44,298 nucleotides of DNA. Source: Gammaproteobacteria bacterium. GTDB taxonomy: Bacteria > Pseudomonadota > Gammaproteobacteria > Xanthomonadales > Marinicellaceae. Positions 32,845 to 41,310 of this stretch are shown one piece after another. The DNA is taken from contig JAJRQG010000059.1 in assembly GCA_024280395.1 (NCBI GenBank), positions 1-44,298 on the forward strand, written 5' to 3'. Position numbers and translations under genes: made by a program. The notes below the pieces were generated by a model. The model had not been told where the DNA came from. It saw only the letters and a list, made by a program, of their open reading frames with translations, and did no database searches. Every line of letters starts with the position of its first letter. The stretch's first letter is position 1.

Positions 32845-33534
32845 ATGAAAATATATATTTTAGAAGACGATGTTGACCAATCGGATTTATATGAACTATG
32901 GCTTGATGAATACAAATGTACTGTGTTTAACAAAGCCAGGGATCTAATCAAACAAATACCTTTCGAGGTTCCAGATGTTTTAATTATAGACTGGAACTTG
33001 CCAAAAGTTGATGGGCTCGATGTTTTACATTGGCTCAAAGGCAGTCGTTATGATGAAATTCCGGTAATTTTTCTTACTTCAAGAAATACCGATGATGACA
33101 TTGTTACAGCTCTTTCTGATGGTGCAGATGACTTTGTTATTAAGCCCGCCAGTGAGGCAATCTTAAAAGCCAGGATAAAAGCGGTAACCAGAAGGCTTAA
33201 TGTTGGCCTATCCAAGACAAATGGAAAGCTGATTTCAGAACCCTATAACTTCAATAACAAAGCAAACACCATTTCATACAAAAACAACAATGTGTCTTTA
33301 ACCAACAAAGAATACGATTTAGCCTTGTACTTTTTTAAAAATGAAGGCTTGCTGATTTCAAGGGATCAATTGCTCGAATCAATCTGGGTGAAAAGTTCAG
33401 ACATCAGCACCCGGACGGTTGATACGCATATTAGCCGCCTTAGAAAAAAATTACTGTTAAACGGCACGTATGGATGGAAACTGGTGTCCATTTACCACCA
33501 AGGCTATAAACTAATCAATCAAAACAAGGCATAG
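32845..33534 (+). CDS. OmpR/PhoB-family response regulator
   Basis: 229 residues. The receiver domain (1-118) shows LEDDVDQ acidic residues, the phospho-acceptor Asp in LIIDWNLPKVDG (near 50), FLTSRN (switch Thr/Ser) and VIKPAS (Lys). A winged-helix DNA-binding domain (about 130-225) follows, with LTNKEYDLALYFFKNEGLLISRDQLLESIW and RTVDTHISRLRKKL. It should bind DNA as a dimer when phosphorylated. GGGAGAG precedes the ATG at good spacing. It is the first gene of the GTPase/OmpA operon and stands two bases before the coiled-coil gene. The hybrid kinase at the end of the same operon is a likely partner, though its own receiver complicates this. Confidence 0.93.
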   Translation: MKIYILEDDVDQSDLYELWLDEYKCTVFNKARDLIKQIPFEVPDVLIIDWNLPKVDGLDVLHWLKGSRYDEIPVIFLTSRNTDDDIVTALSDGADDFVIKPASEAILKARIKAVTRRLNVGLSKTNGKLISEPYNFNNKANTISYKNNNVSLTNKEYDLALYFFKNEGLLISRDQLLESIWVKSSDISTRTVDTHISRLRKKLLLNGTYGWKLVSIYHQGYKLINQNKA

Positions 33535-33536
33535 TT

Positions 33537-33950
33537 ATGAGCAATAAAAATAAACAAGAAACCAATTCTCTGGATTCTGTTGATCAAATTAGAAACATCT
33601 TATTTGGTGAGCAAATTGCCATTATTGAGAAAAGATTTGCAGAGTTAGAACAAAATTTAAACAACACAATCAAGGCCCTTTCGAACAGGGTTGAAAAAAC
33701 CACCAAGAAAATTGAAGATCAAATTTCAAAATCTAATGCACAATTAAGTTCTGAAAGTTCTGATTTGGCAGAACAACAAAGTAAGGCTTTAACCTCCTTA
33801 GAGTCAAATATTAGTAATAAAATTATTGAAACAGAATCTGACTTACTCAACCAAATACAATCAGGCCTGCAACAGCTAGATAATAAGGCCAGCCACAGAA
33901 ATGAACTGGCTAAATTGTTACAAGAAATGGCTGAGAAATTGGCTGATTAA
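33537..33950 (+). CDS. coiled-coil protein of unknown function
   Basis: 137 residues, no Cys or Trp, and very rich in Gln, Asn, Ser, Glu and Lys. Nearly all of residues 25-135 has heptad spacing (IEKRFAELEQNLNNTIKALSNRVEKTTKKIEDQI...), so it should form a long helical coiled coil. There is no signal peptide or membrane segment. It is two bases after the response-regulator stop and nine before the LC7/OmpA-like gene, so it belongs to that operon. A linker or adaptor between the regulator or kinase and the membrane protein would fit, but the family is not one I recognise. Confidence 0.75.
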   Translation: MSNKNKQETNSLDSVDQIRNILFGEQIAIIEKRFAELEQNLNNTIKALSNRVEKTTKKIEDQISKSNAQLSSESSDLAEQQSKALTSLESNISNKIIETESDLLNQIQSGLQQLDNKASHRNELAKLLQEMAEKLAD

Positions 33951-33959
33951 TATCTGCTT

Positions 33960-35786
33960 ATGAGTGAAGAACGCGATATTCTAAAATCTTTATTGCTTAA
34001 AGAGGAGTTAAAACTACTAGACCAAATTAAGCAAAAAGTTTTGTCCGAAGAACAGTTTACCCAAGAAGTCTCAAAAGTCTTGGGTGGTGCCATTAAGCGC
34101 GCACAAAAAGAAGACAAAAGTTTTGAAAGAGCTCTCTCGACTCCCATCCAAAAAGGTGTTACACGGGCCTTCTCTGACAACAAACAATCAATCATTGATG
34201 GTTTGTTGCCCATCATGGGGCAACTGATTAGAAAAACTGTTGCCAACAGTATTAAACAGTTTGTTGCTGATATCAATCGCACTTTAGAATTAGGGTTTTC
34301 AAGCAAAGCACTCAAATGGCGCTGGCAGGCGTTTAAGACGGACCAGTCTTTTGCAGAAATCGTTTTTCAAAAAACAATTCGCTATCAAGTCAATGAAATC
34401 TTTCTCATCAATCAAGAAAATGGTTTATTAATTGAGCATGTAGGGACAGATGACATGTTAAAAGACAACAACGCAATTTCTGCAATGTTGTCAGTTATTC
34501 GAGAGTTCATTGGCGATTCTTTACAATCACCTGATGACAATTTACAAAGTGCAGAAATGGGAGATAATTTACTGTTCTTTTCACATGGGCCAAAAGCTTT
34601 TTTGGTGTTTGTAGTAAAAGGTTCTCCTACCGAACGATTTAAAATTAAGGCACAACAACTAATAGAAAATGTTCACGCGGAGTTCTCTGATGTATTGATA
34701 AATGAAGAAAACTACCGAAACAACACTGACTTACAAAAATTTTTACGAGATCAACTTGTCACCAAAAGCATCTCTGACAAACCTAAAAAAATCAACTGGG
34801 TTCCTTGGGTTGTAGGTATTTTGACCATCGTTTTAGCCTTGAGTTATTGGTCATACAAGAGAAATAAAGAGTACGATGAAATGGTTGATATAGCCAATTC
34901 TATTGGTGGCTTATATGTACAATCTATGGTTCGAACAAGAGGTAAATTTAAGATTAAAGGACTCGTTGATCCGTTGGCTGATACCTCATCACTACAACGA
35001 GAAGATGTGATTTTAGATACCAGACCTTATATATCATTAGATGATACAATCACAAAGAAAAGAGTTGAGATGATTACCGCAGATTTCAATGAGGTTAATT
35101 TCAATGTAGTCAATCAAGAGTTGACTGTTAGAGGCAGTATTCTGCCAAAAGAACAAAAAAAATTCATCCAAAAACTAAATTCAATTGTAGGCATAAAGCG
35201 AATAAAAAATAAAGTTGTTGTCGATAACAGTACGGAAATAACAGCCTTTTTCGAATCATTTTTTGCAATCGATAAGCCTCCAGAATTTACAGTTTCTCAT
35301 AACCATATTTCATTGAGTGGAACTCTAACTTATAGTCAATATCAAAATTTCATTCAAGAAATCAAGCATTTGTTTCCAGAAATAAATGTTAATGGTAAAA
35401 CTTTAACTATTTCTGATAGCAATCAGCTCCTAATAAACAGCATTAATTCCACTGTTATAAATATACCTCTTTTACAGAAAAAAGCGCCAAAACAAATAAG
35501 GCTATTGACTGACATCATAAAAATAAATCAACAATTGGAGCAAAGGGGAGTTTCCTTTAAACTTTCAATTATTGGTCAAAGTGATTGTTATGGTACACTG
35601 AGTGATAGTTATTCAATGAAACGTGCAGAAACAATTATGTCAACATTAATACAGAGCTCTATAGATCCAGCAGTAGTATCAAAAGAAATATTGACCTGCA
35701 ATACATTTGACCAAACCCAAAATGATGCGAAAAGAGTAGTCTCTTTTTTAATTAAACAAACTGAGAAAAACAATGAAAGTCGCTAA
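33960..35786 (+). CDS. transmembrane protein with LC7/roadblock-like, BON-like and OmpA-like domains
   Basis: 608 residues. The N-terminal 1-140 is helical and charged. Residues about 142-245 (VNEIFLINQENGLLIEHV..., ISAMLSVIREFIGDSL, MGDNLLFFSHGPKAFLVFVVKG) have the strand-helix-strand layout and dGLLI start of roadblock/LC7 domains, the fold of MglB-type GTPase partners. One membrane helix spans 279-298. Beyond it are two stretches resembling BON domains (about 360-425 and 430-490) and an OmpA-like C-terminus (about 510-600; LSIIGQSDCYGTLSDSYSMKRAETIMSTLI), which normally binds peptidoglycan. The layout would place LC7 in the cytoplasm and OmpA in the periplasm. The small GTPase gene follows, overlapping by 14 bp. 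The LC7 assignment is by eye. Confidence 0.78.
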   Translation: MSEERDILKSLLLKEELKLLDQIKQKVLSEEQFTQEVSKVLGGAIKRAQKEDKSFERALSTPIQKGVTRAFSDNKQSIIDGLLPIMGQLIRKTVANSIKQFVADINRTLELGFSSKALKWRWQAFKTDQSFAEIVFQKTIRYQVNEIFLINQENGLLIEHVGTDDMLKDNNAISAMLSVIREFIGDSLQSPDDNLQSAEMGDNLLFFSHGPKAFLVFVVKGSPTERFKIKAQQLIENVHAEFSDVLINEENYRNNTDLQKFLRDQLVTKSISDKPKKINWVPWVVGILTIVLALSYWSYKRNKEYDEMVDIANSIGGLYVQSMVRTRGKFKIKGLVDPLADTSSLQREDVILDTRPYISLDDTITKKRVEMITADFNEVNFNVVNQELTVRGSILPKEQKKFIQKLNSIVGIKRIKNKVVVDNSTEITAFFESFFAIDKPPEFTVSHNHISLSGTLTYSQYQNFIQEIKHLFPEINVNGKTLTISDSNQLLINSINSTVINIPLLQKKAPKQIRLLTDIIKINQQLEQRGVSFKLSIIGQSDCYGTLSDSYSMKRAETIMSTLIQSSIDPAVVSKEILTCNTFDQTQNDAKRVVSFLIKQTEKNNESR

Positions 35787-36264
35787 AAAAGTTTGTTTAA
35801 TCGGCAGATTTGCTGTAGGTAAAACTAGCCTAGTTAAACAGTTTATAGACAAACAATTTGGTGAAAAATACAAAACCACCGTAGGAGTGAGCATTTCAAC
35901 CAAGGAACTAATTATCAATGATACAGAATTATCTATGGTGATATGGGATATCGCAGGCTTTGAGCAAGATGGCCACTATACACATTATTTACGAGGCGTA
36001 CATGGCATCATTTGGGTCATGGATGGCACAGAGCCTGAATCATTTGAGATATTGGATATTATTACAAAATCAATTCCAGAAATCACTCAAATTCCCTCAA
36101 TTTGTTTTATCAACAAACACGATTTAACAGATGAGTGGTGTGTGGAAGAAGAACACTTAGAACAGCTTAAACAACTTAACTATGCTGTATTAAATTGCAG
36201 TGCAAAAACAGGCGAAAATGTTGAAGAAGGCTTTACCGAACTTGCTGAACTATTGGTTAGTTAA
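35773..36264 (+). CDS. Ras/Rab-like small GTPase
   Basis: 163 residues, a single G domain. G1 is GRFAVGKTS (11-19), G2 includes the Thr in YKTTVG, G3 is WDIAGFEQDG (in the place of DTAGQE), G4 is NKHD and G5 is CSAKTG. It thus has all motifs for GTP binding and most for hydrolysis; the usual switch II Gln after AG is replaced by Phe-Glu-Gln, leaving Gln one place later. There is no membrane anchor or lipidation signal. It resembles eukaryotic Rab proteins more than MglA in its G3. It overlaps the LC7/OmpA-like gene by 14 bp and is followed 13 bp later by the hybrid kinase, which strongly suggests a shared signalling function. Confidence 0.92.
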   Translation: MKVAKKVCLIGRFAVGKTSLVKQFIDKQFGEKYKTTVGVSISTKELIINDTELSMVIWDIAGFEQDGHYTHYLRGVHGIIWVMDGTEPESFEILDIITKSIPEITQIPSICFINKHDLTDEWCVEEEHLEQLKQLNYAVLNCSAKTGENVEEGFTELAELLVS

Positions 36265-36277
36265 TTGATAATTTCAT

Positions 36278-37765
36278 ATGATTCCTGAAATTGTTAAAAA
36301 CTTTCTATTAACCCAAAAACAAGGCAGCGGATTCTTTTGCCTTTCATTAAACAAAAATCATCACATTGTTCAATGTTATGGAGAGCCTCAACTCTTGGGG
36401 TTAAAAGAACCCAATAAAAACATCCCTATTTTTGAATTTTTACCGATTCTTATCACCGAAAGTTTTACCACTGATTTTAAAATTCCTTTTTATAACATCA
36501 GCGAGGAATTTGTCTGCAATATTTATTTCATTACACAACCGTTATGTAACTATTTAATATTAATAGATCGATCTGAAATTTTTCAAATCACTCAAAAATA
36601 CCAACAGTTTGCTCATGACGACAACATTACTAAAAACAAATTTAAAAGAATAGCCGAACAATTAGAAAAGACTCAAGATAAATTAAAACAATCCAACAAT
36701 GAAAAAGCGACCTTAATAGCGATGCTTTCCCATGAATTGGGTACACCTTTGACTTCTATTTTAGGCTACTCAGAGCTTATGCTAAACAATGCAACCGACC
36801 CTAAAAAAGGCATAGAGATTATTCACAGAAATGCCAACTATTTACAACACTTGATTGAAAACACATTGATGTTTGGCAAAACCGAAGCCGGAGGGCAGCA
36901 AATTCAATTTGAAAATGTATCAGCAAACTCTCTTTTCAAAGACCTTGCGGCATCAATGCTTCCAGCTGCCCAAAATAAAAATCTTGTTTTGCGTATTGCT
37001 GATGATTTTGATGTTGAAGAAACCCTTAATATTGATTTAACCAGAACCAAACAAATCTTGATTAATTTGCTTAATAACGCAATCAAATATACAGAGTTTG
37101 GGTCGGTAGAATTGCAATTTTCTAACAATGCAAGTCATTATATTTTTTCTATCATTGATACAGGGCTTGGTGTTGCAAAGGAACTGCAAAGCACAATTTT
37201 TAATCCATGGGAAAGAATAAAAGAGAACACTGAGTCTGGATCAGGGATTGGCTTGTTTATTAGTAGAAAACTGACCCATGCCATAGGTGGGAAAATTCAA
37301 TTAAAGAGCTCTTCAAAAGAAAATGGCTCGGTATTTCAACTCATTCTACCCGTGCAAAAAATGCCATCTGGCAAAATTGTTATATCTGATGATGAGTATG
37401 AAAAAGCCAAGAACAAATCAATCCTCATCATTGATGATGATTATGACATATTGATTTTGATAGAGGCATTGCTTCAATCAAGTGGACTCAAGATCTTTAC
37501 TACTACAGATTACCCTAAAGCACGCAGAATCTTAGACCAAGAAAAGATTGATATTATACTAACAGATTATAACCTAGGGACCATAACTGCCTCATCTTTT
37601 ATAACTGAATTGAAAGATGCGCACATAGATTTGCCTATTTTGCTCATGTCAGCTATGCCCTCTGACACGATTAAAGCCAGCTATTTACGGCTTGGGTTTA
37701 AAGATGTCATTAGCAAGCCATTAAATAGAAAAAAATTGTTAAAAGTTCTTCTTTCCTATTTGTAG
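36278..37765 (+). CDS. hybrid histidine kinase with C-terminal receiver
   Basis: 495 residues with no membrane segment. Residues 1-110 look like a degenerate sensor (PAS-like) domain. A coiled linker (about 112-148) leads to the H-box IAMLSHELGTPLTSILGYSELM (phospho-His near 155), then NLLNNAIKYTEFG, IDTGLGVA and SGSGIGLFISRKL of the ATPase. The receiver (about 380-495) has ILIIDDDYD, the phospho-acceptor in IILTDYNLG, LLMSA and ISKPL. It is a cytoplasmic kinase that probably receives input from the GTPase or LC7/OmpA protein in the same operon and passes phosphate to the OmpR-type regulator at 32845. The last gene of the operon; it ends three bases from the convergent DUF1232 gene. Confidence 0.92.
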   Translation: MIPEIVKNFLLTQKQGSGFFCLSLNKNHHIVQCYGEPQLLGLKEPNKNIPIFEFLPILITESFTTDFKIPFYNISEEFVCNIYFITQPLCNYLILIDRSEIFQITQKYQQFAHDDNITKNKFKRIAEQLEKTQDKLKQSNNEKATLIAMLSHELGTPLTSILGYSELMLNNATDPKKGIEIIHRNANYLQHLIENTLMFGKTEAGGQQIQFENVSANSLFKDLAASMLPAAQNKNLVLRIADDFDVEETLNIDLTRTKQILINLLNNAIKYTEFGSVELQFSNNASHYIFSIIDTGLGVAKELQSTIFNPWERIKENTESGSGIGLFISRKLTHAIGGKIQLKSSSKENGSVFQLILPVQKMPSGKIVISDDEYEKAKNKSILIIDDDYDILILIEALLQSSGLKIFTTTDYPKARRILDQEKIDIILTDYNLGTITASSFITELKDAHIDLPILLMSAMPSDTIKASYLRLGFKDVISKPLNRKKLLKVLLSYL

Positions 37766-38275: not shown

Positions 38276-38454
38276 TGACTTATCCTCTATTTAATCGTCT
38301 ATAATACTATAGCACTTAGCATAGGCTTTATTCATGTGCCAATGGTCACTTTGTCAGCTTTCTAAGACTAATTGAAGCATATCACTAGATTTTTAATGTG
38401 CTTTACTGTTAATATTAGAGGTTGCTAATAAACAAAATAACAAGAGGATTCTCA

Positions 38455-39756
38455 ATGAGTGATAACAAATCGATTGTAGAAGACCCCAATAGCGCTAAAG
38501 CGTCTAGCAGACGGAAGTTTTTAGGGCAAGCTGCGGCTGTTTCAACAGTTGTAGCATCGGGTTCTGTTGCTGCCAATAATTTACCCCCCAATGTACCCGC
38601 ATGGCAAAAACACCTTGGGAAACCAGTTAATTCAAATCCTTATGGACAGCCATCTAAGTATGAATCAGATGTTAGACGCCTGAGAGTGCCTTGGCTGACT
38701 CCTGACTCAATCGCCTCTATTAGTTTTACGCCTCTGGCTGAAATAAAGGGCATGATTTCTCCAAATGGGCTTGCTTTTGAAAGGGACCATGGGGGATTGC
38801 CGACCATTGATCCTAAACAGCACCGTTTGATGATTCACGGATTAGTAGATAAGCCCATCATTCTAACCATGGAAGACATTGAACGGTTTCCAACAGTCTC
38901 AAGAGTTCACTTTATTGAATGTCCTGCAAATTCAGCAATGGAATGGAAGGGTCCGCAAGTAGGTCGTTTACAGTTCACTCATGGGATGACCAACTGTTGC
39001 GAGTGGACAGGCGTTCCATTGAAGTATATTCTAGAAGAAGTGGGAGTCAAACCTGAAGGCAAGTGGCTGTTGGCTGAAGGTGCTGATTCTGCATCTATGA
39101 GTCGCTCTATTCCTATGGAAAAAGCCTTAGATGATACACTTGTTGTTTTTGGCCAAAATGGTGAAGCCTTAAGACCAGAGCAAGGATACCCGCTTAGATT
39201 GTTAACACCTGGCTGGGAAGGCAATACATCCATTAAGTGGTTACGCCGCATAGAAATAACCGCAGAACCATCCTATCAACGGGAAGAAACTTCAAAATAT
39301 ACTGACCTTTTGAATCCGCAAGATCCAGAACACAAAGATTTAATAGGCAAAGCCTATTTGTTCTCTTGGATTATGGAAGCCAAAGCGATAATCACTTTTC
39401 CTTGTCCAGAAAAGCCCCTCAAAGGCCATGGAAAATATGTGATGAATGGTTTAGCTTGGACCGGTACAGGAAAAATCAAACATGTTGATGTATCATTAGA
39501 TGGAGGGATTAATTGGCAACAAGCCGAGCTCAACGGCTTAGTTCTTGACAAATGTTGGACGCGTTTTAGTTTGACTTTTGAATGGAACGGAGAAGAAATA
39601 CTCTTACAATCAAGGGCAACAGGCGAAGATGGTTATGTTCAACCAACTCTCAAGCAATTGAGAAAAGCTCGCGGCGTAGCCAGTATTTATCACAACAATG
39701 CCATTCATACTTGGAAAATCAACAAAAATGGAGAGGTGGAAAGTGTACAAGTTTAA
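38455..39756 (+). CDS. soxC: sulfane dehydrogenase molybdenum subunit
   Basis: 433 residues from the ATG at 38455, which has AGAGGA seven bases upstream; a TTG at 38422 is in frame but unlikely. A Tat signal (SSRRKFLGQAAAVS, 18-31) exports the folded protein with its cofactor. The sulfite-oxidase-type molybdopterin domain includes HFIECPANSAMEWKG with the Mo-ligand Cys156. The dimerisation domain follows (about 290-430), with SWIMEAKAIITFP, HVDVSLDGGINW and LLQSRATGEDGYVQP. With SoxD it oxidises the sulfane sulfur held on SoxY, releasing electrons to cytochrome c. It overlaps soxD by a few bases. Confidence 0.95.
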   Translation: MSDNKSIVEDPNSAKASSRRKFLGQAAAVSTVVASGSVAANNLPPNVPAWQKHLGKPVNSNPYGQPSKYESDVRRLRVPWLTPDSIASISFTPLAEIKGMISPNGLAFERDHGGLPTIDPKQHRLMIHGLVDKPIILTMEDIERFPTVSRVHFIECPANSAMEWKGPQVGRLQFTHGMTNCCEWTGVPLKYILEEVGVKPEGKWLLAEGADSASMSRSIPMEKALDDTLVVFGQNGEALRPEQGYPLRLLTPGWEGNTSIKWLRRIEITAEPSYQREETSKYTDLLNPQDPEHKDLIGKAYLFSWIMEAKAIITFPCPEKPLKGHGKYVMNGLAWTGTGKIKHVDVSLDGGINWQQAELNGLVLDKCWTRFSLTFEWNGEEILLQSRATGEDGYVQPTLKQLRKARGVASIYHNNAIHTWKINKNGEVESVQV

Positions 39757-40765
39757 AGTCAATAAAAAATTAGCCTTAGCCATCATTGCTTCATTGTCTC
39801 TCAACGCATGTTCTAATGACAACTCCGCGAATCAAAATGACTCAAGCGTAGTCTTGGCTGTGGTTAACACTGTTTTGCCTGCAGCACAAGCTGCTGACTA
39901 TGAATCTATTTCAATAAAGCCTGGTGGATTTAACTTGGGCAAAGTTGCAAGCGAAGAAGAAATTGCTGGTTGGCATATTGAAGTCTCTCCAACACACAAT
40001 TTACCACCTGGCGGAGGTTCTGCAGCCGACGGCGAAGACTTGTTTGAAGACGAATGTTCCAGCTGTCATGGCTCTTTTGGTGAAGATGTTGGACGCAACC
40101 CCGTTTTAGCAGGTGGCGAAGGCACTCTAAAAGATAGACAAAAGCCAGAACGAACAGTAGGCTCATATTGGCCCTATGCTTCTATTTTATTAGACTATAC
40201 CCACCGAGCCATGCCTTTTTCATCCGCTCAATCTTTGACTTGGGATGAAACTTGGTCGTTGTCTGCATATGTTTTGTATCTTAACGATATCATTGAAGAT
40301 GAAGACTTTGTTTTTAATGCTGAAAGTTATTCCCAAATTGTTATGCCAAATGTAGATGGGTTTGTTCGAGATAAACGGCCTGATACACACAACTCTCGCT
40401 GTATGAAAGACTGCAAAAACCCTAAGGAAATTAATGTTAAAACTGCATTGTTGGGCTATGGATCAGGTGCGGAAGACGTGGTTGAAGAAACAAAAGTAGT
40501 TAAAGGTCACGAAATTGGGCAGAAAGTTTATGATGCTACATGTAGGTTGTGTCATGACTCTGGCTTAGCTGGAGCACCAAAAGTAGATGACGTGTTGACT
40601 TGGGAACACCGCTTAAGGCAAGGGATCAGTCAAGTACACAAACACGCCATAAATGGCTTCCAGGGGCAAAATGGTGTTATGCCTCCCAAAGGTGGAAATA
40701 TGGAATTAACTGACGAAGAAGTAAAAGCAGCAGTAGATTTCATGCTAAAAGACATAGAAAAATAA
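39743..40765 (+). CDS. soxD: diheme cytochrome c subunit of sulfane dehydrogenase
   Basis: About 340 residues. I prefer the GTG at 39743, which follows GGAGAGG at good spacing; the ATG at 39728 is the alternative. The N-terminus is a lipoprotein-type signal ending LNAC (Cys23), so this SoxD may be anchored in a membrane, which is unusual for a periplasmic subunit. Two heme-c sites are present: CSSCH (105-109) and CRLCH (267-271). The closing segment MPPKGGNMELTDEEVKAAVDFML provides a Met ligand region. It carries electrons from SoxC. The start lies inside the soxC 3' end. Confidence 0.92.
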   Translation: MYKFKVNKKLALAIIASLSLNACSNDNSANQNDSSVVLAVVNTVLPAAQAADYESISIKPGGFNLGKVASEEEIAGWHIEVSPTHNLPPGGGSAADGEDLFEDECSSCHGSFGEDVGRNPVLAGGEGTLKDRQKPERTVGSYWPYASILLDYTHRAMPFSSAQSLTWDETWSLSAYVLYLNDIIEDEDFVFNAESYSQIVMPNVDGFVRDKRPDTHNSRCMKDCKNPKEINVKTALLGYGSGAEDVVEETKVVKGHEIGQKVYDATCRLCHDSGLAGAPKVDDVLTWEHRLRQGISQVHKHAINGFQGQNGVMPPKGGNMELTDEEVKAAVDFMLKDIEK

Positions 40766-40785
40766 CAAAAACTTTAAAAACCTGC

Positions 40786-40823
40786 ATTCAGCTTATATTC
40801 AACATTGCTAATATAAGATGAAT
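40786..40823. promoter_or_regulatory. 14-bp-arm inverted repeat upstream of soxY
   Basis: ATTCAGCTTATATT (40786-40799) and AATATAAGATGAAT (40810-40823) are inverse copies with one mismatch and a 10-base spacer. The stem could extend to CCT (40781) and AGG (40824) with a small bulge. It lies 42-100 bp before soxY and its right arm overlaps the predicted promoter. No T-run follows, so it is an operator or an RNA-stabilising hairpin and not a terminator. Confidence 0.7.
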
Positions 40824-40833
40824 AGGTTAGAAT
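40805..40833 (+). promoter_or_regulatory. probable sigma70 promoter for soxYZ
   Basis: TTGCTA at 40805-40810 and TAGAAT at 40828-40833 are separated by exactly 17 bp. The start of transcription would be near 40840, 24 bp before the soxY ATG. The right arm of the inverted repeat occupies most of the spacer, so soxYZ may be controlled separately from soxCD. Confidence 0.5.
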
Positions 40834-40863
40834 AACCGACTAAATTTAACTAGGAGATACATT

Positions 40864-41310
40864 ATGAGTTTAACAAGAAGAGGCATGCTTAAGCGAATCA
40901 TTGCTGGCAGTGCCGTTGCACTGGTTCCATTTAGCGCATTTGCGCAGTGGGCAGAAGCAGCATTTAAAGCAGATAACTACAAAGCTGCTTTGACTGCAAT
41001 TGGTTCAGAAGGAGCTGTTGCAAGCGATAAAATCAAATTAAAAGCACCTGAGATTGCTGAAAATGGAGCCGTTGTACCCATTCAGGTTAGCTCTACTCTA
41101 GAAAACATTGAGTCAATCAGTTTATTGGTTGAAAAAAACCCAACGCCATTAACCGCACAATTTAAAATGTTTCCTGGTTTAAAACCAGATTTTAAAATCC
41201 GAGTAAGAATGGGCGAAACTTCAAAAGTTGTCGCAATAGTAAAAGCAGATGGTAAATCTTATTCTGCTAGTTCTGAAGTTAAAGTAACAATCGGCGGCTG
41301 CGGCGGTTAA
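40864..41310 (+). CDS. soxY: sulfur-carrier protein SoxY
   Basis: 148 residues. A Tat-type signal (TRRGMLKRIIAGSAVALVPFSAFA) is followed by a small beta-sandwich domain. The C-terminus ends GGCGG, the SoxY signature; its Cys (146) carries the sulfur intermediate as thiosulfonate and sulfane during the Sox cycle in the periplasm. TAGGAGATACATT gives a strong ribosome site. It precedes soxZ by 11 bp. The length and ending are typical, and the protein is intact. Confidence 0.97.
   Translation: MSLTRRGMLKRIIAGSAVALVPFSAFAQWAEAAFKADNYKAALTAIGSEGAVASDKIKLKAPEIAENGAVVPIQVSSTLENIESISLLVEKNPTPLTAQFKMFPGLKPDFKIRVRMGETSKVVAIVKADGKSYSASSEVKVTIGGCGG

Follow-up and report, generated by a model that had tools for sequence, protein, structure and literature searches.

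Group 1 Rup systems were described from genome sequences by Wuichet & Sogaard-Andersen (2014) (PMC4316618). They comprise a coiled-coil protein, a membrane protein with a domain of unknown function (DUF), a transmembrane helix and an OmpA domain, a small GTPase without the catalytic glutamine of the G3 motif, and an output enzyme carrying a conserved glutamine. Their GTPases are very similar to Rab, Ran, Ras and Rho, and the Rup branch was placed closest to these families; typical outputs are diguanylate cyclase/phosphodiesterase fusions and histidine kinases (PMC4316618). The paper reports 0 Rup genes coupled to MglB and states that no member of the Rup family had by then been characterised. 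In a stretch of 44,298 nucleotides from a gammaproteobacterium of the Marinicellaceae (assembly GCA_024280395.1, contig JAJRQG010000059.1, hereafter the window), we identified a five-gene operon whose composition, the response regulator excepted, fits a Group 1 Rup type GTPase system. Because it matches the published systems, the operon does not represent a novel system, and its locus belongs to a kind that has been described but apparently not studied. The DUF, however, appears to contain a GTPase-holding domain that the 2014 description did not recognise; reading it as a roadblock/longin-like platform names the likely regulator of the GTPase.

The operon spans positions 32845–37765 and is composed of five open reading frames on the forward strand; three of the junctions are gaps (2, 9 and 13 bases), and at the fourth the genes overlap by 14 bases. 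The first gene encodes an OmpR-type response regulator (32845–33534, 229 residues; Pfam Response_reg 3.2e-21, Trans_reg_C 1.6e-18). It is followed by a cytoplasmic coiled-coil protein, here called CC (33537–33950, 137 residues), in which hydropathy never exceeds 1.6 in any averaging window. The third gene encodes the membrane protein, MEM (33960–35786, 608 residues), with a roadblock/longin-like cytoplasmic domain, one transmembrane helix and a BON/OmpA-like periplasmic part. The Rab-like small GTPase of Group 1 Rup type comes next (35773–36264, 163 residues; Pfam Ras 1e-29), its gene overlapping that of MEM by the 14 bases, and the hybrid histidine kinase is last (36278–37765, 495 residues; Pfam HisKA, HATPase_c, Response_reg). 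A preliminary description made from the letters of the window had listed the same five genes, overlap included, and its readings of the GTPase, the hybrid kinase and the response regulator agree with the Pfam matches. It had further stated that no characterised system of this make-up was known. The architecture itself had been published from genomes in 2014 (PMC4316618), whereas for experimental work the statement may hold: no experimental study of a Group 1 Rup system was found in the literature searched, which subscription papers were mostly outside.

The window GTPase belongs to the Ras superfamily and, at 163 residues, lies within the Group 1 Rup size range of 150–240 residues; its closest solved relative is Rab23 (8.9e-24). 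The G3 motif WDIAGF (35944–35961) keeps Asp59 and has Phe63 at the position of the catalytic glutamine, so that the aspartate is kept and the glutamine is absent, as in Group 1 Rup. The same holds across the aligned GTPases, where the G3 aspartate is found in 63 of 63 and the glutamine in 0 of 63, the other two of the 65 rows being gapped at this site. MglA lacks the usual G3 aspartate (PMC4316618), and membership of the window GTPase in the MglA family was dropped on account of Asp59. Both kinds of neighbouring protein expected of Group 1 Rup are encoded beside the GTPase, namely a coiled-coil protein and a MEM of the DUF, transmembrane helix and OmpA type (OmpA is matched in 10 of 25 MEM sequences, not in that of the window).

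The adjoining hybrid kinase consists of an N-terminal region of ~100 residues, a linker with two consecutive glutamines, HisKA, HATPase_c and a receiver. These glutamines, Gln109 and Gln110 (36602–36607), are each conserved at 90% or more in a 26-row alignment, and judged from sequence they probably correspond to the glutamine that output enzymes of Group 1 Rup systems conserve. A glutamine motif after the N-terminal region was matched in 45 of 54 outputs (a list without those of loci L026, L029 and L151) by a regular expression which, like those used below for a D...R pattern and an N-terminal motif of MEM, was set after the sequences had been inspected. By class these were hybrid kinases (25/28), plain kinases (1/5), cyclases (11/11), HD proteins (4/6), GGDEF-EAL proteins (3/3) and one unclear case (L138). 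By eye, the outputs of L040 and L043 also carry QQ at the linker position. The unclear case is a 143-residue open reading frame following the GTPase (L138, 1008–1439), which holds an output-type N-terminal region and the glutamine motif alone, as if the sensor and catalytic parts had been split. Three loci carry reduced paralogues with a response regulator, a GTPase and a hybrid kinase and without recognised CC and MEM (L048, 8237–10974; L049, 6731–9499; L050, 6878–10250). Their GTPases are degenerate, with G3 lost in L048 and L049 and the P-loop missing from the L050 reading frame. A tie between a degenerate GTPase and loss of the output glutamine was considered and set aside as too thin, since L048 and L049, which have no QQ, resemble each other and amount to a single case, and QQ is retained in L050.

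The preliminary description had proposed a roadblock/LC7-like region in MEM at residues 142–245. A profile of MEM residues 118–262 (66 sequences, 59 after the program's filter) was compared by hhalign with 41 roadblock domains, drawn from 43 of 48 listed loci (without L119, L121, L127, L129 and L188) with two more skipped for odd length. It gave a score of 27.4 (P 4.6e-4) and an alignment in register with MglB-type proteins; 60 column shuffles scored at most 18.3 and the reversed profile 14.3. Unrelated profiles of the output N-terminal region, the GTPase, the regulator and CC reached a probability of 0.2–0.3% in this test, and the control-profile comparison used 19 of 20 roadblock loci. No homology of the output N-terminal region to the MEM domain was seen by hhalign (probability 0.2%).

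An AlphaFold model of MEM 113–267 (from two sequences; mean predicted local confidence, pLDDT, 73.6; predicted TM-score 0.67) shows the order of elements α-α-β-β-α-β-β-β-α-α. It contains, with moderate confidence, an α/β core of β-β-α-β-β-β with flanking helices that is similar in three dimensions to roadblock and longin domains. The two folds are related and have been described as circularly permuted versions of one another (PMC3521125); the canonical longin order is β-β-α-β-β-β-α-α, and the roadblock order is permuted, with a leading helix and one extra strand (PMC6864590). The MEM model contains the longin order after two helices and has one strand fewer than the roadblock order; it matches the longin order no less well than the roadblock one. 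In a Foldseek search with this model, ranks 1–20 were chains of six MglB or MglA–MglB entries (best E 4.2e-5); from their length we infer that the matched chains of two MglA–MglB complexes are MglB. The remaining rows shown were archaeal and Streptomyces roadblocks, Ragulator/MP1-p14, EGO and Rag chains, one more MglB and one more MglA–MglB entry. With VIA, the rows for the same model were of EGO, Rag, roadblock, profilin and longin types, closely bunched. A longer model, MEM 1–278, is poor (mean pLDDT 43.6, also from two sequences). This low-confidence model aligned to longins (Z 13.3, root-mean-square deviation (rmsd) 2.8 over 117 residues). The 50 entries listed in that comparison are mostly of longin type and do not include MglB, which does not count against MglB. 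Foldseek with the same low-confidence model returned axonemal, Rag, MglB, Ragulator and adaptor chains.

Based on these profile and fold comparisons, and not on a family match, residues ~142–262 of MEM (34383–34745) probably adopt a roadblock/longin-like superfold, close to the limits first proposed. A predicted fold unrelated to roadblock/LC7 had been named as the outcome that would speak against that proposal, and the top Foldseek matches of the model were MglB chains, so that the proposal was not refuted on this count. Robl_LC7 (PF03259) is not among the families matched by 25 MEM sequences. Since the window MEM has no PF03259 match, we name the domain roadblock/longin-like and do not call it a PF03259 member. 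Elsewhere in the genome of the window, two neighbouring Robl_LC7 (MglB-type) proteins lie above the Pfam cut-off (G000, C49, 52874–54390), so that this genome may also hold an MglA-type system.

Outside this domain, hydropathy (Kyte-Doolittle, 19-residue windows above 1.6) gives MEM a single transmembrane helix at residues ~277–298 (34788–34853), as the preliminary description had it. The part beyond the helix contains BON-like repeats (35022–35429, residues ~355–490, approximate limits judged from the MEM alignment) and a divergent OmpA-like domain (35427–35783, residues ~490–608). The BON/OmpA-like C terminus, also noted at the outset, was borne out in relatives, OmpA being matched by 10 and BON by 7 of 25 scanned MEM sequences (Pfam, E 0.01 or better), and not by any Pfam match in the window's own MEM. 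A D...R pattern, GQSDCYGTLSDSYSMKRA at residues 539–556, occurs, as judged with a loose pattern, in 49 of the 63 MEM proteins whose tails are of sufficient length, the window MEM included; we take it to resemble the peptidoglycan-binding Asp/Arg positions of OmpA. Uncut MEM proteins range from 455 to 1023 residues, and their invariant residues lie in the N-terminal half. Searching solved structures by MEM sequence gave nothing useful, with one row at E 0.64 and three at E 0.034, 1.6 and 1.7 (m4D2, saposins). In rhizobial MEM proteins the periplasmic part contains several tandem repeats of ~105 residues (L021, 8761–11826; L022, 8761–11826).

MEM and CC have an N-terminal motif in common, with the consensus L-R/K-x-L-L-[hydrophobic]-G-x-E or a variant of it. 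In the window it reads LKSLLLKEE in MEM (33981–34007, residues 8–16) and IRNILFGE in CC (33588–33611, residues 18–25). The corresponding regular expression matched 55 of 65 MEM, 20 of 61 CC, 2 of 49 outputs, 0 of 64 GTPases and 3 of 3285 other open reading frames, and shuffled sequences gave 0.7, 0.2, 0.1, 0.1 and 5.4 matches, respectively. A hidden Markov model (HMM) of the CC motif, built from just 5 of 61 CC sequences because the selection pattern was too strict, matched 57 CC, 4 MEM and 0 of 3285 other reading frames at a score of at least 8. The CC protein of Nostoc begins with a similar stretch. Judged from its sequence, the motif may be a common docking helix.

In the genome of the window and 40 related ones (41 in all), MEM was found in 25 and the GTPase in 26, each count including a weak match in genome G007 (9.0e-4 and 3.1e-5, respectively). 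We read 65 MEM loci, in which close relatives of the window are over-represented. Where there is room for these neighbours, the gene immediately before MEM encodes a CC homologue at 61 of 64 loci and the gene immediately after it a GTPase at 59 of 61. As MEM and the GTPase recur and the gene order is kept in relatives, the operon is not a product of chance. Across 369 gammaproteobacterial genomes, that of the window included, MEM is present in 30 (E 1e-10) and the GTPase in 36 (E 1e-15), of which 29 have MEM and 7 do not. The MEM-less matches are G404, an assembly of 670 contigs (1.4e-49), and six at 8e-28 to 4e-16, which look like other GTPases because their open frames are at least 300 residues long, except for that of G104 (218 residues). 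One genome, G215, has MEM without the GTPase. With the GTPase limit at 1e-28, a value chosen after the list had been seen, 30 genomes are counted and both genes occur in 29 (Fisher p 9e-41, uncorrected for kinship).

In 398 genomes drawn across the phylum Pseudomonadota, a set that overlaps the previous one, MEM occurs in 50. The same gene order is found on rhizobial plasmids, and CC, MEM and GTPase genes lie together in that order on a Nostoc plasmid; the system therefore crosses phyla. Two scans of viral contigs yielded no confirmed relative, and a mobile-element origin was accordingly dropped. One same-genus relative with the system (L023) is a metagenome-assembled genome labelled Alcanivoracaceae.

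The enzymes encoded after the GTPase are of several kinds. At the 65 loci they comprise 29 hybrid kinases, 5 kinases, 12 nucleotide cyclases (that of L167 among them), 6 HD proteins and 3 GGDEF-EAL proteins, and at 10 loci the output was unseen or unclear. Classes were assigned from Pfam (for the window and for 20 other proteins, 18 of which matched a family), from record annotation or by similarity. A response regulator homologue precedes MEM at 25 of the 29 hybrid-kinase loci, many of which are close relatives, as against 0 of 26 loci with other outputs. On a MEM tree of 52 of 66 rows, the output label needs at least 6 changes, where the minimum possible is 4 and the mean of shuffled labels 22.4; output switches were therefore few, although the deeper forks of this tree are not all firm. 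The rows left out were L025, L027, L029, L047, L151 and L157, which are near-copies or cut, and eight loci lacking a classed output. This variety suggests that one GTPase front end is coupled to several kinds of signalling enzyme.

Three-prime of the operon, at 38422–41310, open reading frames resemble by eye a molybdopterin sulfite-oxidase-type protein, a c-type cytochrome and a SoxY-like protein, a likeness that suggests sulfur oxidation.

Gene content, gene order, co-occurrence, the missing G3 glutamine, the output glutamine and the variety of outputs were computed here, and on them we build a model of how the system might work, in which we infer every physical contact, signal and direction of flow. 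The reading we favour, and judge somewhat better than even in its prospects, is that MEM, anchored to the wall, serves as a platform setting the state of the GTPase and that the GTPase gates the output enzyme. MEM would sit in the inner membrane with its BON/OmpA-like periplasmic part, as the family suggests, reaching toward the wall, and its cytoplasmic roadblock/longin-like domain would hold the Rab-like GTPase. On a change in the envelope, the platform and its coiled-coil partner would alter GTP loading, unloading or hydrolysis on the GTPase. In one nucleotide state the GTPase would then contact the kinase at its N-terminal domain and QQ linker and change kinase activity. As suggested in PMC4316618, the residue that the GTPase lacks may be provided by the linker glutamine. 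The kinase would in turn signal to the OmpR-type regulator and so change transcription. The preliminary description had the LC7 domain reading the envelope state and passing it on to the GTPase and the two-component pair, which is plausible; its domain readings were upheld at family and fold level, and its interpretation as a whole is partly supported.

Several observations weigh against the platform reading. No Pfam model reached its cut-off in the window MEM, with neither Robl_LC7 nor OmpA (PF00691) listed, and the D...R pattern was not found in 14 of the 63 MEM tails, two of which escaped only the particular expression used. The hhalign probability of the match between MEM and roadblock domains is 33%, and in the same run MEM 1–110 scored 16% against CC, a value that we read as probably reflecting their common N-terminal motif. 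The AlphaFold models of MEM were each built from two sequences. Foldseek TM-scores for the MEM 113–267 model, normalised by the query, are 0.35–0.40 with an rmsd of mostly 7.5–9.5 Å, and VIA gave it a Z of at most 6.2, a level that the tool calls middling; the tool also warns that no meaning attaches to matches of low-confidence models, so that the Foldseek and longin results of the MEM 1–278 model count for less. The glutamine pattern missed 9 of 54 outputs and matched just 1 of 5 plain kinases. L140 and L158 have CC and MEM and no adjoining GTPase (in the genome of L140, G322, the GTPase sits on a different contig), and L147–L149 are without CC by HMM.

The roadblock/longin-like domain could act as a scaffold alone, recruiting the GTPase to the inner membrane without setting its nucleotide state, with the periplasmic part fixing the position and not conveying a signal. 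Ragulator, EGO and Rag entries are among the fold matches, and Ragulator anchors Rag GTPases (PMC5680233); the wide range of MEM lengths (455–1023 residues), with invariant residues in the N-terminal half, also accords with this. However, the glutamine missing from G3 in all 63 aligned GTPases implies help in trans from within the system, and MglB and longin relatives act on nucleotide state (PMC3521125, PMC6864590), so we regard a scaffold without regulation as unlikely. We give still less credence to a reversed flow, as in conservons, in which the output enzyme senses and acts on the GTPase, the kinase glutamine serves as the residue of a GTPase-activating protein, and wall-anchored MEM is the effector. 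That idea draws on PMC4316618, which compares Group 1 Rup with conservons, where the GTPase is taken as the output, and sets the output glutamine against the missing G3 glutamine. Five catalytic types behind one kind of front end fit enzymes as outputs instead, and the response regulator accompanies hybrid kinases alone.

Least probable of all, in our judgement, is that the MEM domain is a PAS/profilin-like sensor of a small ligand that merely resembles roadblock, the GTPase binding elsewhere, for example at the conserved helices around residues 60–140. The longin fold is itself PAS-like (PMC3521125), and profilins and small near-infrared fluorescent proteins stand near the roadblock rows in VIA Z. 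Yet all 50 Foldseek rows shown for the MEM 113–267 model are MglB, roadblock, Ragulator/MP1-p14, EGO or Rag, and MglB-type proteins align in register with the MEM profile.

Two features make the locus of interest, the pairing of a Rab-like GTPase with a roadblock/longin-like domain and the wide range of outputs. We put forward tentatively, as a rather doubtful but attractive possibility, that an ancient bacterial Rab-like GTPase has its roadblock/longin regulator inside an envelope-spanning protein and that the two together form a front end that can be exchanged between kinases, cyclases and cyclic di-GMP enzymes. If this is true, the eukaryotic Rab–longin partnership has a bacterial counterpart in the Rup branch, beyond MglA/MglB, and the variety of outputs would link the cell envelope to two-component, cyclic-nucleotide and cyclic di-GMP signalling.

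The closest of the known systems is Group 1 Rup, and the histidine kinase output of the window falls within its published description. Three points set the present loci apart: the published DUF is read here as roadblock/longin-like; a response regulator accompanies the hybrid-kinase versions; and relatives have nucleotide cyclase and HD-domain outputs that the section of PMC4316618 on these systems does not name, although its supplementary table may list them. The MglA/MglB polarity switch resembles the window system in its small GTPase, roadblock-type partner and links to response regulators, whereas the roadblock-like domain of the window is fused to a transmembrane helix and a periplasmic part and has no Pfam Robl_LC7 listing. 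Since the GTPase of the window keeps the G3 aspartate that MglA lacks, MglA/MglB is an analogy and not the family of this system. The conservons of Actinobacteria (CvnA–D) likewise encode a kinase, a roadblock protein and a small GTPase together. In contrast, the five-gene operon has no separate MglB-type protein or CvnC (no Robl_LC7 match), its GTPase is Rup-like, and its kinase carries a receiver and no predicted transmembrane helix. Among eukaryotic systems, the longin/roadblock regulators Mon1–Ccz1, Inturned–Fuzzy and Ragulator offer the parallel of a Rab-like GTPase beside a longin/roadblock-like domain. Fuzzy is part of a Rab23 guanine nucleotide exchange factor, and its appearance as a fold match of the low-confidence MEM model together with Rab23 as the best match of the GTPase may be coincidence. 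The window differs from these eukaryotic regulators in having a single bacterial domain, with putative exchange activity, inside an envelope protein.

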